A stretch of 64,000 bases of DNA from Uliginosibacterium gangwonense DSM 18521. GTDB taxonomy: Bacteria; Pseudomonadota; Gammaproteobacteria; Burkholderiales; Rhodocyclaceae. A program made the translations under genes and the position numbers. Numbering within the stretch: the stretch's first letter is position 1; every line of letters starts with the position of its first letter. This document shows, in pieces, positions 16,511-59,597 of the stretch. A model generated the notes under the pieces. That model ran no database searches. It was not told the origin of the DNA and saw nothing but the letters and a program-made list of their open reading frames with translations. Location of the stretch: the NCBI RefSeq assembly GCF_000373965.1, contig NZ_KB892835.1:255954-319953 (forward strand), read 5' to 3'.

Positions 16511-17620
16511 ATGGATGGTCAAGGCATGAAGGTGGTGGTGGGGATGTCTGGCGGCGTGGATTCCGCCGTGGCGGCGCTGCTGCTCAAACGCCAGGGATAC
16601 GACGTGACCGGCCTGTTCATGAAGAACTGGGAAGATGACGACGACGGCGAATATTGCTCCACGCGCCAGGATCTGGTCGATGTGGCCTCGGTCTGCGACG
16701 TGCTGGGGATCGAGCTTGAAGTGGTTAACTTCAGCAAGGAATACAAGGATCGGGTCTTTGCCGACTTCCTGCGTGAATACGAAGCGGGCCGTACGCCCAA
16801 CCCGGATGTGCTGTGCAACAGCGAGATCAAGTTCAAGGCCTTTCTCGATCACGCCATGGCATTGGGCGCAGAGAAGATCGCTACCGGGCATTACGCCGGG
16901 GTGCGTGAGTGGAATAATGATGGACGCATTGAGTATCAGCTCCTCAAGGCAGAAGATGGCACCAAGGACCAGAGCTATTTCCTCTACCGCCTCAATCAGG
17001 CCCAACTCTCCCGGGTGATCTTCCCCCTTGCTGGCGTGTATAAGCGGGACGTGCGTGCTTTGGCTTCTGAGGCCGGGCTGCATGTGTTCAACAAGAAGGA
17101 TTCCACCGGCATCTGCTTTATCGGTGAGCGCCCATTCCGCGAATTCCTGATGCGTTATCTGCCTACAAAACCGGGCGAAATTCGTTGTCTGGATGACGGG
17201 CGGGTACTTGGAGAGCACCAGGGCTTGATGTATCACACCATCGGCCAGCGCAAGGGGCTGATGATTGGCGGTATCAAGGGCAACGATGTAGCGGGCGACC
17301 ATGAAGCCTGGTATGTGGCAGCCAAGGATATCCCGAACAACGTGCTCTACATCGTGCAGGGGCATGACCACCCTGCCTTGCTGCGCGAGCGCCTGACGGC
17401 CATTGACCTGAACTGGATTGCGGGGCGTGAGCCGCATGCTAATTGGGTGTATGCCGCCAAGCCGCGTTACCGTACACCGGATCAGCCCTGCGAGGTCGAC
17501 TCGGTCAGTGCCGAACGTGCCGAGATCGCCTTTGCCACGCCACAATGGGCGGTGACGCCTGGGCAATCGGTCGTGCTGTATGAAAGCAAGGTGTGCCTTG
17601 GCGGTGGGATCATCGCCTGA
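16511..17620 (+). CDS. mnmA: tRNA-specific 2-thiouridylase MnmA
   Basis: This 369-residue cytosolic enzyme thiolates U34 of tRNA-Lys, -Glu and -Gln. The ATP PP-loop [10 protein letters not shown] is near residue 11. The catalytic Cys pair lies in [14 protein letters not shown] (about residue 98) and [12 protein letters not shown] (about residue 199). The C-terminal beta-barrel reaches [13 protein letters not shown] 16511 is chosen because AGAAGAG lies 6 bases upstream. ATG 16493, which overlaps the nudJ stop, is the alternative and would add six residues. It is coupled to nudJ. Confidence 0.95.
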
Positions 17621-17703: not shown

Positions 17704-18484
17704 GCTCAATGATTGAGCAGACCTCTTTTCCCCATCTCAATCAACAGCTTGAGTGTCTCACCCACACCTTGTCCACAAGCCTGCCAACAGTAACAGGGGA
17801 CAAAATCGGGTTTTCCCCTTTGATTCAAGCATGATTTCGAGTGATTCTGGCGGTCATGGCACTTGCTCAATTATTGATCAATGCGGATTTTTGTTGATTT
17901 ATCAATGGTTTGAGTGGATGCCTCACACCTTGTCCACAAGGCTGCCAACACTATCAGGGGACAAAATTCAGCTTGGCTCTGTTTTTATTGGGTCAAAAAC
18001 TGAAATTCCTGTTTGTCATGGCAGAAACCCTGGATTGGTCAATAATGAATCAGAAGGGGATTTTTAAGATCTATCAATGACTTGAGTGCTTGCCCCACAC
18101 CTTGTCCACAAGGCTGCCAACATTATCGGGGGACAAAATGCAGCTTGGCACTGATTTTTATGGGAAAAATCTTTAATTCTTGTTTGTCATAGTGAAAACA
18201 CCGGATTGAGCAGAAATGAATCAAAAACGAATTTTCCTGATCTATCAACGGCTTGAATCGGTGCCCCACACCTTGTCCACAAGGCTGCCAACATTATTAG
18301 GGGACAAAATACTGCGCAGCATGGTGCTCTCCAAGAGGCAGCGTGGCTGCGGAAAACCCGTGGGCTGATATTGTTTGTGCTGGGCAATGATTGAGCAATG
18401 CGAAATTGTGTCATCTTTTCAAGGCTCTAAGGGCTTCCCCCACACCTTGTCCACAGGCCTGCCAACACGAACAGGGGACAAGTT
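17704..18484. repeat. Array of five ~170-bp tandem repeats with DnaA-box-like cores
   Basis: Five degenerate units fill the gap between mnmA and the next gene. Each has a 44-bp core, at 17763-17806, 17924-17967, 18096-18139, 18267-18310 and 18441-18484, so the spacing is 161, 172, 171 and 174 bp. The core reads CACACC, TTGTCCACA, CTGCCAACA, six variable bases, then GGGGACAA(AAT). Four of the five contain the palindrome CTTGTCCACAAG. TTGTCC and GGACAA form a second inverted pair. Each core is preceded by an AT-rich stretch, with ATCTATCAA or a close variant in units 2-4 and CTTGAGTG-like bases. Units 1 and 5 begin with CAATGATTGAGC (a perfect palindrome in unit 1). TTGTCCACA differs by one base from the enterobacterial DnaA box and equals the actinobacterial one. 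No protein reading is conserved across units. Confidence 0.85.
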
Positions 18485-18530
18485 GGTCCTTCTCTTCTAC
18501 CAAACGCGTTGCGCGATGTGGCGCGGCGAA

Positions 18531-18554
18531 AAAAGAGGGCTTTCGCCCTCTTTT
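18531..18554 (-). terminator. Terminator of the secreted protein gene at 18582
   Basis: AAAAGAGGGC (18531-18540) pairs perfectly with GCCCTCTTTT (18545-18554), loop TTTC. On the minus strand it ends in a T run and lies 28 bases after the stop codon. Its symmetry would also let it work on the plus strand, where it closes the repeat array. Confidence 0.85.
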
Positions 18555-18581: not shown

Positions 18582-19937
18582 TCAGTAGGATTTGGCGAAG
18601 GGATAGAAGGGGTTGAAGCCCTTGGCGCCAAAGATCAGCCAGGCGGTGCCTGCTGCGCTCGTGGCGGTCTTCATGCGGAAGTAGGTGTTGCTTGTGCCAC
18701 GGTCGGAGTAGCGCAGACCCCCATCGCTTTGCTGGCGTGCAACCAGGGTGCCAAGATAGGTGTCGATCTTGCTCTGGATGGCAGTGGTGCCCCATGCTTT
18801 TGCGGCATAGAACGCCTTGGCCATCTTGAGGGCGACGACCATCTGCCCGGTGCCTTCATACCATGTATCCTGGATCTTGTCGTTCACGATGGCCAGATCG
18901 CCATTGGTGTAGGCACTGGCCGAAAAATAGTCCCACCAGCTATTGAAATAGGTGCCTTGGTTTGCGCGTTCGCGGCTGTTCACGAAATCGACACCGCTAT
19001 TGTATTCAAATGGGCTGGGCGAGGTTTCTACTGCCCATTTGACAAGTGAATAATAGGCGTTGTTGTAGTCATCCCCCATGGCAGCACTCCCCCAATTGAG
19101 CATATCGGTGGGGAACTTGCTGTCGTTGCGGCCACCGTTGAAGCGCAGCTCGCCTGCATTCCAGACTGTATTGGTGAGGAAACTCGTGACGCTGGCCCGG
19201 GCGCTGTCGATGGAATAGTCCCCGGTGAGTGTCTGGTTGGCCTTGGCATACAGGGTGGCGTTGTTCTTGATGCCGGTCAGCAGGGCGTATACATCCAGAT
19301 TATGTTCGGTGGAGCCGACCGACTGCAGTCGATTGGAGGCGAAGTTGACGCCGCCATCGCCGCCCCATTGGGTTTTCCACTGGATGGTGGAAACGTAACG
19401 GGCCACGTTGATGATCATGTCATCATAGCTTGTATCGCTGGGGTATTTGGTTCTGTAGGCCAGCGCGGCAAGCCCTACCCAGACACTGGGGCCGACATCT
19501 GTGTAGGGCTCTGCTTCCGCGCCAGAAGTGGCGCTGTTGCCGGTGCAGGTATAGGCAGTCGCCCAGGAGCCCTCGGATTTTTGCAGGCTTTTGAACTTGT
19601 TGAGGATAGCTTGCGCCTTGGCGACCGAGGTGTTGCCCGAACGCGTGTCTTGCAGGTAGGCCATGACGGCAAGTGCCTGATCATAGGTATAACCGTAGTT
19701 GTCGACCGCCCTTGGTGTGACGAGTTTATAGACGCCATTGACCAGGGTGTAATTGTCGTTGTAGTCGTTGCGGAAAGAGGCGATGCAGCCCAGCCCGTAT
19801 TGGCTGTCGAGCCAGCCATAGGCGTTGGTGACGGCTGTGGATATCTGTGCCGTGGTGGCCGCGCCTACCGAACTGGCGGCCGATGTGGCTGCAACGGCGG
19901 CCAGCGCGGCCAGGGTGTTGCGAACGATTGTCTTCAT
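18582..19937 (-). CDS. Secreted protein of unknown function, probably alpha/alpha toroid
   Basis: This is a 451-residue protein. A signal peptide ends near ASSVGAA (residue 27). The rest is rich in Tyr, Trp, Asn and Asp, with repeated helix-pair motifs (NAYGWLDSQYGLG, YDQALAVMAYL, VWVGLAALAYRTKYP, YYSLVKWAVE, GQMVVALKMAKAF, TAWLIFGAKGFNPF). This pattern suggests an alpha/alpha barrel like six-hairpin glycosidases or terpenoid-cyclase-fold proteins. I do not recognise a family and can name no catalytic residues. It is likely periplasmic or secreted. Its own promoter region upstream is AT-rich, and a terminator follows. Confidence 0.6.
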   Translation of the reverse strand: MKTIVRNTLAALAAVAATSAASSVGAATTAQISTAVTNAYGWLDSQYGLGCIASFRNDYNDNYTLVNGVYKLVTPRAVDNYGYTYDQALAVMAYLQDTRSGNTSVAKAQAILNKFKSLQKSEGSWATAYTCTGNSATSGAEAEPYTDVGPSVWVGLAALAYRTKYPSDTSYDDMIINVARYVSTIQWKTQWGGDGGVNFASNRLQSVGSTEHNLDVYALLTGIKNNATLYAKANQTLTGDYSIDSARASVTSFLTNTVWNAGELRFNGGRNDSKFPTDMLNWGSAAMGDDYNNAYYSLVKWAVETSPSPFEYNSGVDFVNSRERANQGTYFNSWWDYFSASAYTNGDLAIVNDKIQDTWYEGTGQMVVALKMAKAFYAAKAWGTTAIQSKIDTYLGTLVARQQSDGGLRYSDRGTSNTYFRMKTATSAAGTAWLIFGAKGFNPFYPFAKSY

Positions 19938-58628: not shown

Positions 58629-59597
58629 ATGGCAATTCCAGCTTTGTTGCGCGAGCGTTTGAGCCTGCCTGTGATCTGTGCGCCTATGTTCATTCTCTCC
58701 AACCCTGATCTGGTGATTGCCCAATGTCTAGGGGGGCTGGTTGGTTCGTTTCCAGCACTGAATGCGCGGCCCCTTGGAGTGCTTGAAGAATGGATTGTGC
58801 ATATCAAGACTGCATTGGCGCAGGCGCGTGAGGCTGATCCGGGCCGACGGATCGGCCCGTTTGCTGTCAATCAGATTGTCCACAAATCCAATGATCGTCT
58901 TGCGCATGATATGGAGGTGTGCGTCCGTCATCAGGTTCCCTTGATCATCACCAGCCTGAGTGCTCCGCAGGATATTGTTCCTGCTGTACACGCTTATGGT
59001 GGATTGGTGTTTCACGATGTGATCAGCGTGCGCCATGCCGAAAAAGCTCTGGAGGCCGGTGTTGATGGACTGATCCTGGTATGTGCCGGGGCTGGTGGGC
59101 ATGCGGGCACCTTGAATCCCTTTGCCCTGGTTGGCGAGGTGCGCCGTTTCTACGATGGGCCGATTGTTTTGTCCGGGGCGATTGGCAATGGCCGGGCCAT
59201 CCTTGCGGCGCAGGCGATGGGAGCAGATTTGGCGTATATGGGCACGCGCTTCATTGCCACACAGGAGGCCGGGGCCAGTCAGGCGTACAAGGATTGCCTG
59301 GTGGCTAGCCGTGCGGCGGACGTGGTGTATACGCCTTATTTCACCGGGGTGCCGGGCAACTACCTCAAAGCCAGCATTTTGGCTGCGGGTCTGGACCCTG
59401 AACATCTGCCTGAGCGCGGCAAGGATTCCATGAATATGGGTAGTTCCAGCGCCAAGGCCTGGAAGGATATTTGGGGGGCGGGGCAGGGCGTAGGCGGGAT
59501 TGATGATATCCCTGCCACCGCTGAGCTTATTGCCCAGATCCAGCGCGAATATGCCCAGGCCCGCGCTGCTTTGGTGGATGCGACCAAGTTATTTTGA
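58629..59597 (+). CDS. Nitronate monooxygenase-family flavoprotein
   Basis: This is a 322-residue FMN-type TIM barrel: LPVICAPMFILSNPDLVIAQCLGGLVGSFPALNAR at the start, GLVFHDVISVRHAEKALEAGVDGLILVCAGAGGHAG near residues 121-156, and ADLAYMGTRFIATQEAGASQAYK near 199. These are the hallmarks of nitronate monooxygenase/NAD(P)H-dependent flavin oxidoreductases. Relatives also act in fatty-acid enoyl reduction (FabK-like), and the substrate is not clear. The ATG directly follows the fadD TAA, so it is the last gene of the cluster. Confidence 0.88.
   Translation: MAIPALLRERLSLPVICAPMFILSNPDLVIAQCLGGLVGSFPALNARPLGVLEEWIVHIKTALAQAREADPGRRIGPFAVNQIVHKSNDRLAHDMEVCVRHQVPLIITSLSAPQDIVPAVHAYGGLVFHDVISVRHAEKALEAGVDGLILVCAGAGGHAGTLNPFALVGEVRRFYDGPIVLSGAIGNGRAILAAQAMGADLAYMGTRFIATQEAGASQAYKDCLVASRAADVVYTPYFTGVPGNYLKASILAAGLDPEHLPERGKDSMNMGSSSAKAWKDIWGAGQGVGGIDDIPATAELIAQIQREYAQARAALVDATKLF

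Follow-up and report, generated by a model that had tools for sequence, protein, structure and literature searches.

Tandem DARS-like modules as possible DnaA-control elements in Uliginosibacterium gangwonense

A five-unit array in the window

What might a tandem array of DnaA-box-like sequences do in a stretch of DNA that carries no dnaA gene? Control of the nucleotide state of DnaA is known mainly from E. coli, in which DARS1 recharges ADP-DnaA. The stretch analysed here (the window, 64 kb of contig C2 of U. gangwonense) had been given an initial annotation that noticed five tandem repeats with cores 161, 172, 171, and 174 bp apart, and that offered a second or relocated origin, a datA-like DnaA-titration locus, a regulator-binding array, or small RNAs as their identity. 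A direct-repeat search reproduced the array at window positions 17704-18481, as five 97-nt copies starting at 17707, 17868, 18040, 18211, and 18385 with exactly that spacing. Identity to the reference copy is 71-79% for four of the five. Every copy carries TTGTCCACA, and GGGGACAA starts 27 bp after it. On the plus strand of the window, GGGGACAA is confined to the five copies and TTGTCCACA has one more occurrence, at 58876. The motif GATCTATCAA, which had been noted in two units, was found in the window at 18068 and 18239 only, and both occurrences overlap an IHF-consensus site. The unit profile R1, a sequence-only profile made from 43 units (10 from this genome and 33 from family genomes), matched the five units with E <= 5.9e-18 each, all five being training members; with default filters, no other match was found in the window up to E = 10. 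The features are listed in Table 1.

Table 1. Features of the array and its flanks, in window positions
Feature	Position	Strand or direction	Details
mnmA	16511..17620	+	upstream gene, transcribed towards the array; Pfam PF03054, E=4.7e-79
Unit 1	17704..17803	+	Fis-consensus 17704-17718 (GCTCAATGATTGAGC, 0 mismatches); IHF-consensus 17739-17751 (AATCAACAGCTTG, 0); core 17769-17803
Unit 1 core, box III-like	17769-17777	->	TTGTCCACA, then 3 bp
Unit 1 core, box II-like	17781-17789	->	CTGCCAACA, then 5 bp
Unit 1 core, box I-like, inverted	17795-17803	<-	TTGTCCCCT
Unit 2	17865..17964	+	Fis 17865-17879 (0 mismatches); IHF 17900-17912 (TATCAATGGTTTG, 0); core 17930-17964
Unit 3	18037..18136	+	Fis-like 18037-18051 (1 mismatch); IHF 18072-18084 (TATCAATGACTTG, 0); core 18102-18136
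Unit 4	18208..18307	+	Fis-like 18208-18222 (1 mismatch); IHF 18243-18255 (TATCAACGGCTTG, 0); core 18273-18307
Unit 5	18382..18481	+	Fis 18382-18396 (0 mismatches); IHF-like 18417-18429 (2 mismatches); core 18447-18481
GC-rich stem-loop GAGGGC-TTTC-GCCCTC	18529..18554	.	flanking A and T runs; between the array and the 451-aa ORF; by eye
451-aa ORF	18582..19937	-	no Pfam match; convergent with mnmA

Anatomy of the unit

Each unit of about 100 bp consists of a 35-bp core preceded by two consensus sites, a 13-mer for IHF at -30 and a 15-mer for Fis at -65. The description of the cores as DnaA-box-like held: each has three box-like 9-mers arranged 9+3+9+5+9 in the orientation ->-><-, which is the geometry of DARS. 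In the window the core reads TTGTCCACA-N3-CTGCCAACA-N5-(A/G)GGGGACAA, and the geometry is the same in 5/5 window units and in 5/5 units of a second array on contig C13. IHF sites were called with WATCAANNNNTTR, which I take to be the consensus form. The IHF consensus printed in a part of PMC8682772 is TAAnnnnTTGATW, nearly the reverse complement of WATCAANNNNTTR, and the Fis consensus GnnYAnnnnnTRnnC was used as it is printed in passages of PMC4585315 and PMC8682772. The IHF consensus at exactly -30 is perfect in four of the five window units and has two mismatches in unit 5; the Fis consensus at exactly -65 is perfect in three and has one mismatch in two. In the C13 array, the Fis consensus lies at -65 or -66 (perfect in 3/5 units, one mismatch in 2/5) and the IHF consensus at -30 (one mismatch in 2/5, two mismatches in 3/5). 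On both strands of the 64-kb window there are seven perfect IHF sites, four of which are those of the array units. Because the units are in tandem, every inner IHF site is flanked by boxes to its left and right. The AT-rich stretch that had been likened to 13-mers of a DNA unwinding element (DUE) resolves into IHF- and Fis-consensus sites; no DUE was seen in the window array.

The boxes differ in strength. In the window units, box III matches 7/8 positions of the DnaA consensus, box II (CTGCCAACA) 4/8, and box I 5/8. The values for boxes II and I are 5/8 and 7/8 in C13 unit 5, and 8/8 and 6/8 in a single copy on contig C35. By the E. coli consensus alone, the window units are unexceptional: they score 16, and a score of at least 16 is reached at eight places in the window, three of them outside the units.

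Are the flanking sites a property of the core-bearing loci in general? Since circularity was to be avoided, sites in named genomes were selected on the core alone, which gave 73 matches in 67 stretches (70 with full flanks, 59 non-redundant). Of the 59 sites, 32 have the IHF consensus (<=2 mismatches) at -30, where the background per offset and strand is 0.17, and 17 have the Fis consensus (<=1 mismatch) at -65, where it is 0.81. The Fis test also peaks at -9, +2, and +29 (31, 24, and 16 of 59), peaks that were discounted because they were attributed to core letters fixed by the search pattern. In the family set (37 units, 34 non-redundant), Fis at -65 is kept in 20/34 units and the IHF consensus (<=2 mismatches) at -30 in just 2/34; a TCA(A/G)-containing block persists at the IHF position, departing from the consensus. 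Therefore, the Fis part is better kept in this family, while the IHF part is better kept in the present genome and in the named-genome set.

Comparison with E. coli DARS and datA

In E. coli MG1655, the bioD-uvrB region contains TAATACACA-TGG-TTATCCACA-GGAAT-AGTGGATAA and the rppH-mutH region contains TCTTACACC-ATG-TTATCCACA-GAAAG-CTGGGATAA, both spaced 9+3+9+5+9 with the last box inverted. From this geometry and their location, I take the two sites to be the DARS1 and DARS2 cores. The rppH-mutH region also has a second, weaker triple at L115:1636 (match listed at L115:1631). The DARS1 core, TAATACACA-N3-TTATCCACA-N5-inverted TTATCCACT, is identical in geometry to the window units. Like them, DARS1 is intergenic and has three 9-mers; unlike the window array, it is single-copy and non-tandem. 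DARS1 and DARS2 share one box spacing, with box I opposite to II and III (PMC5742627), and a passage of PMC10380432 calls the head-to-head I/II pair characteristic of and essential for DARS in E. coli. Box strength is reversed: box II is perfect in the E. coli DARS, whereas the window units are strong only at box III. With box II at 4/8 and box I at 5/8, the head-to-head pair is therefore the weak part of the window units. A perfect box II does occur at the C35 copy and at loci of the phylum-wide search such as L265, L275, L283, and L286; for these phylum loci, the best-fitting 9+3+9+5+9 register was chosen, a procedure biased towards that geometry.

The flanks recall DARS2. According to part of PMC5742627, DARS1 is active in vitro without further factors. 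DARS2 requires IHF and Fis sites on one side, with IHF closer to the core (PMC4245941). In experiments described in the latter paper, IBS1-2 was moved nearer to FBS2-3 or nearer to the core, which implies the order core-IHF-Fis for DARS2, as in the window units. These units thus have DARS2-type features, an IHF-type site near the core and a Fis-type site beyond it. DARS2 is a single 455-bp element with further DnaA boxes and the window unit is about 100 bp. No IHF consensus at -30 and no Fis consensus at -65 was found at DARS1 or at the presumed DARS2 core; therefore, the flank layout differs from that of E. coli.

R1, which contains no E. coli sequence, was also run on a control set of 44 kb of E. 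coli loci together with DNA from the dnaA region of the present genome. The best of the 34 matches is the DARS1 core, in register (10.3 bits, E=0.018), followed by U. gangwonense DNA downstream of dnaA (8.9 bits, E=0.047). A match 13 kb into locus L256 of U. gangwonense has 7.5 bits, and the second rppH-mutH triple 7.0 bits (E=0.18). The site taken as the DARS2 core scores just 2.6 bits, so in sequence as well as in site positions the window units are unlike E. coli DARS2. The margin for DARS1 is small, and its E-value would lack significance on the scale of a genome.

The E. coli region taken as datA has perfect boxes at 1745+ and 1907+, boxes with one mismatch at 1678+, 1919-, 2290-, and 2576-, and a perfect IHF site at 1810-. 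Like the window array, datA combines DnaA boxes and an IHF site away from oriC; it is not known to require Fis. A scan of the datA region found no inverted triple at 12/14-bp pitch. Among the E. coli loci, DARS comes closest to the array in core geometry, ahead of datA. In B. subtilis, which is described in part of PMC13220808 as lacking IHF, datA, and DARS1/2, several DnaA-box clusters outside oriC are discussed in the same source as affecting initiation via free DnaA.

Partner proteins

Fis is encoded in the genome (PF02954, 81 aa), between frames that look dusB-like and purH-like by eye. A DnaA-family protein of 245 aa presumably is Hda. The DnaA of U. gangwonense agrees with that of E. coli at 15 of 17 checked residues, the exceptions being H136 (F) and R398 (K); K178, D235, D269, R281, R285, L290, and GRDHTTVLHA are kept. 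Roles of D269 and L290 are described in a part of PMC5742627. A tblastn search with the 57-aa N-terminus of E. coli IhfB against 870,642 bases of the genome (at most ~17% of it) gave no hit. Since a passage of PMC10380432 describes IHF as generally present in proteobacteria, its presence was assumed here. One relative (G105) has 17 DnaA-domain matches; beyond dnaA these are mostly frames of 304-319 aa, many with equal scores. I take the extra frames to be IS21-type IstB ATPases.

Possible role of the array

With moderate confidence, I read the array as tandem DARS-like DnaA-control modules that share the DARS geometry and most probably serve to reactivate DnaA. That DnaA, IHF, and Fis bind here, and that the outcome is reactivation and not sequestration or inactivation, is inferred. 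Fis and IHF would attach beside the three-site DnaA core of each unit and bend the DNA there. By analogy with DARS, ADP would be released from ADP-DnaA bound at the head-to-head pair II/I, so that DnaA could rebind ATP. The five units and the five on C13 would increase the capacity and make it depend on the copy number of the locus, and an array away from the origin may help to set the time of chromosome copying. Of the earlier options, a locus that controls DnaA by binding it and a regulator-binding array are supported, and the element extends to IHF- and Fis-type sites.

The main rival is DnaA titration or datA-like inactivation, because the middle box of the window units is so far from the DnaA consensus. 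The strong box III would anchor ATP-DnaA, which would spread head-to-tail onto the low-affinity box II with the help of IHF; the array would then sequester DnaA or promote ATP hydrolysis after initiation. A strong box next to a degenerate one at 12-bp pitch, an IHF-type site 30 bp away, and ten units with three box-like sites each are consistent with this, and part of PMC12371093 supports chromosomal DnaA titration in E. coli. On the other hand, the units have a Fis site and, at a constant 14-bp pitch, an inverted box I, which are DARS/DARS2 traits, and the 12/14-bp triple is missing from the scanned datA region. I regard titration or inactivation as possible though rather doubtful.

Copies in the genome and distribution

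Is the array unique? With <=3 mismatches, the 35-bp core pattern occurs ten times in the 5.02-Mb genome, five times in the window and five times on contig C13, while a reversed control pattern gave no match. The C13 cores form a second five-unit array (337168-337840; L008:7104-7841). R1 added an eleventh, single copy upstream of xseA on contig C35 (L255:10474-10570, E=1.5e-4), which is more canonical, having TTATCCACA in position II. Over 110 bp, mean identity is 69% within the C2 array (10 pairs), 56% between C2 and C13 units (25 pairs), and 55% within the C13 array (10 pairs). As would be expected, the higher mutual likeness of the C2 units fits local tandem duplication at C2. The idea of a plasmid or phage element was dropped; the 802-bp array has no blastn match (E 1e-5) in 72,556 plasmid or 50,697 phage records.

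The unit is widely conserved. At E<=0.1, R1 matched 280 of 297 family genomes and 67 of 68 genera, with about 30 matches expected by chance; a strict filter loses some. At E<=0.01 it matched all 26 genomes of a non-random, hand-chosen set (mostly single-contig genomes with earlier hits, plus the present one). At E<=0.001 it matched 137 of 398 genomes drawn across the phylum, the present one included, where chance would give ~0.4. The E-values are rough, and training genomes count in all three figures. Named genomes with matches include Herbaspirillum, Trinickia, Aromatoleum, and Pseudomonas. R1 matched all 67 named stretches (131 matches in total), because each contained the core. Many of these matches lack the Fis part, running from about model position 47 on, as do the best ones in several Pseudomonas loci. 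Herbaspirillum autotrophicum has seven cores 129-194 bp apart (L233). The middle site CTGCCAACA recurs in four of these seven units and in Pseudomonas oleovorans, a recurrence that is partly selected because the scan pattern demanded YTGYCNACR. Some relatives have perfect TTATCCACA boxes within the core.

In the seven other genomes of the genus, the exact core pattern at <=2 mismatches gave no match, and R1 at E<=0.1 gave 3-9 matches in each. Two genus members have diverged three-unit arrays (L261:9858-10368 and L262:9820-10339) that adjoin frames of 746 and 769 aa with similar N-termini by eye and no Pfam match; perhaps this location is shared within part of the genus. A conserved association with mnmA was considered and rejected: R1 and the core pattern (<=6 substitutions), run on both strands, found no unit at the MnmA loci of the seven genomes (eight loci with ~1.5-kb flanks, G004 being in two pieces). 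The initial annotation had held that absence from related genomes, or wide scattering of copies, would speak against an origin or titration role. Relatives do carry units, yet none at mnmA in the seven other genus genomes. They also carry several copies at different loci, which argues against an origin and not against a role in DnaA control.

How much of this is new? According to a passage of PMC4245941, Fis and the DARS2 core occur specifically in the gammaproteobacteria close to E. coli. The distribution of DARS is given as beta- or gammaproteobacteria in part of PMC5742627, and a part of PMC10380432 states that DARS-like sequences are conserved in many proteobacteria; thus, DARS-like sequences beyond enterics are already known. 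Searches of open-licence papers showed no account of tandem DARS arrays. I suggest, only tentatively, that tandem DnaA-Fis-IHF modules form an undescribed and widespread class in beta- and some gammaproteobacteria, with arrays of five and five here and of seven in H. autotrophicum and with a recurring weak, non-canonical CTGCCAACA-like middle site, which might act as a copy-number-tunable device for DnaA recharging or sensing that is absent from E. coli. Such compact modules of ~100 bp would allow the DARS and datA concepts to be tested outside enterics, and their varying unit number could reveal any dependence of initiation timing on the number of units. A short sequence model makes it easy to score them in proteobacterial genomes.

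Neighbouring genes

As mnmA and the 451-aa ORF are convergent, neither neighbour starts at the array. The stem-loop between the array and the ORF resembles a bidirectional terminator by eye and is absent from the list of the terminator scan. The C13 array also lies between convergent frames, a flavodoxin-fold gene and a partial HAD-type frame. A nitrogenase-like frame (nifK-like by eye) is found a few kb from the C13 array.

The convergent setting of both arrays and the consensus sites at fixed offsets would suit a Fis/IHF element that structures the nucleoid or insulates transcription, with the DnaA-like boxes of minor importance. This is improbable, given that the invariant alignment columns fall mostly within the core (cores being the basis on which the units had been picked) and that some relatives have perfect DnaA boxes there. 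Does the array control a neighbouring gene? In five genera (g36, g44, g49, g57, and g67), a unit or array lies 5' of an M61-peptidase-like frame (blastp identity 63-77%, with Pfam run on the g67 copy only), as such control would predict. The convergent frames at both arrays of U. gangwonense and the different neighbours at other loci, for example L028 and L036, make it very unlikely. Tandem small-RNA genes would also appear as repeated intergenic units, and the array region has four promoter-like matches against a shuffle mean of 0.6. These matches, however, lie on both strands and at differing unit positions, the C13 array has none, the window has no Rfam family at the gathering threshold, and the conserved blocks fit protein sites; small RNAs are thus a highly improbable reading.

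Chromosomal position

The dnaA gene lies at ~445 kb on contig C1, in agreement with its noted absence from the window. GC skew was taken from sampled 10-kb pieces. On C1 it changes from mostly negative to positive around dnaA, with one positive piece near 90 kb. Nearly every piece of C2 is positive, apart from values at or just below zero near 120 and 420-440 kb, and every piece of C13 is negative, so that neither five-unit array lies at a switch in the sampled pieces. Downstream of dnaA, L009:2540-3180 contains two blocks ~400 bp apart, each reading TTATCCACAGAAACG -> TATTAGTATTAGG -> AT-rich run -> GTTAACAAC. The motif TATTAGTATTAGG lies at L009:2708 and 3110, each time paired with the DnaA box TTATCCACA. 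This region is probably the oriC of U. gangwonense, with a duplicated unwinding-type block, and it also holds the second-best R1 match of the control set. The exact TATTAGTATTAGG motif was not found in the window array or the C13 array. In single-contig relatives, the highest-scoring arrays are far from dnaA, at varying distances. Although the clustered DnaA-type boxes with an IHF-type site had suggested a second or relocated origin, the skew, the blocks downstream of dnaA, and these distances leave that proposal scarcely credible.

A preferred replichore position for the arrays was also considered and dropped, as positions vary among single-contig relatives. Four relatives have a weaker, single-copy match between hemE-like and priA-like frames (L252:10575-10684, L254:4359-4467, L258:9935-10039, and L260:734-842), the frames having been checked by Pfam for G073 only. 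Its distance from dnaA is ~15-20 kb in G073, G141, and G143, and 30 kb in G059. Boxes II and I are canonical or near-canonical in all four, and this copy is a candidate for a DARS at a fixed locus.
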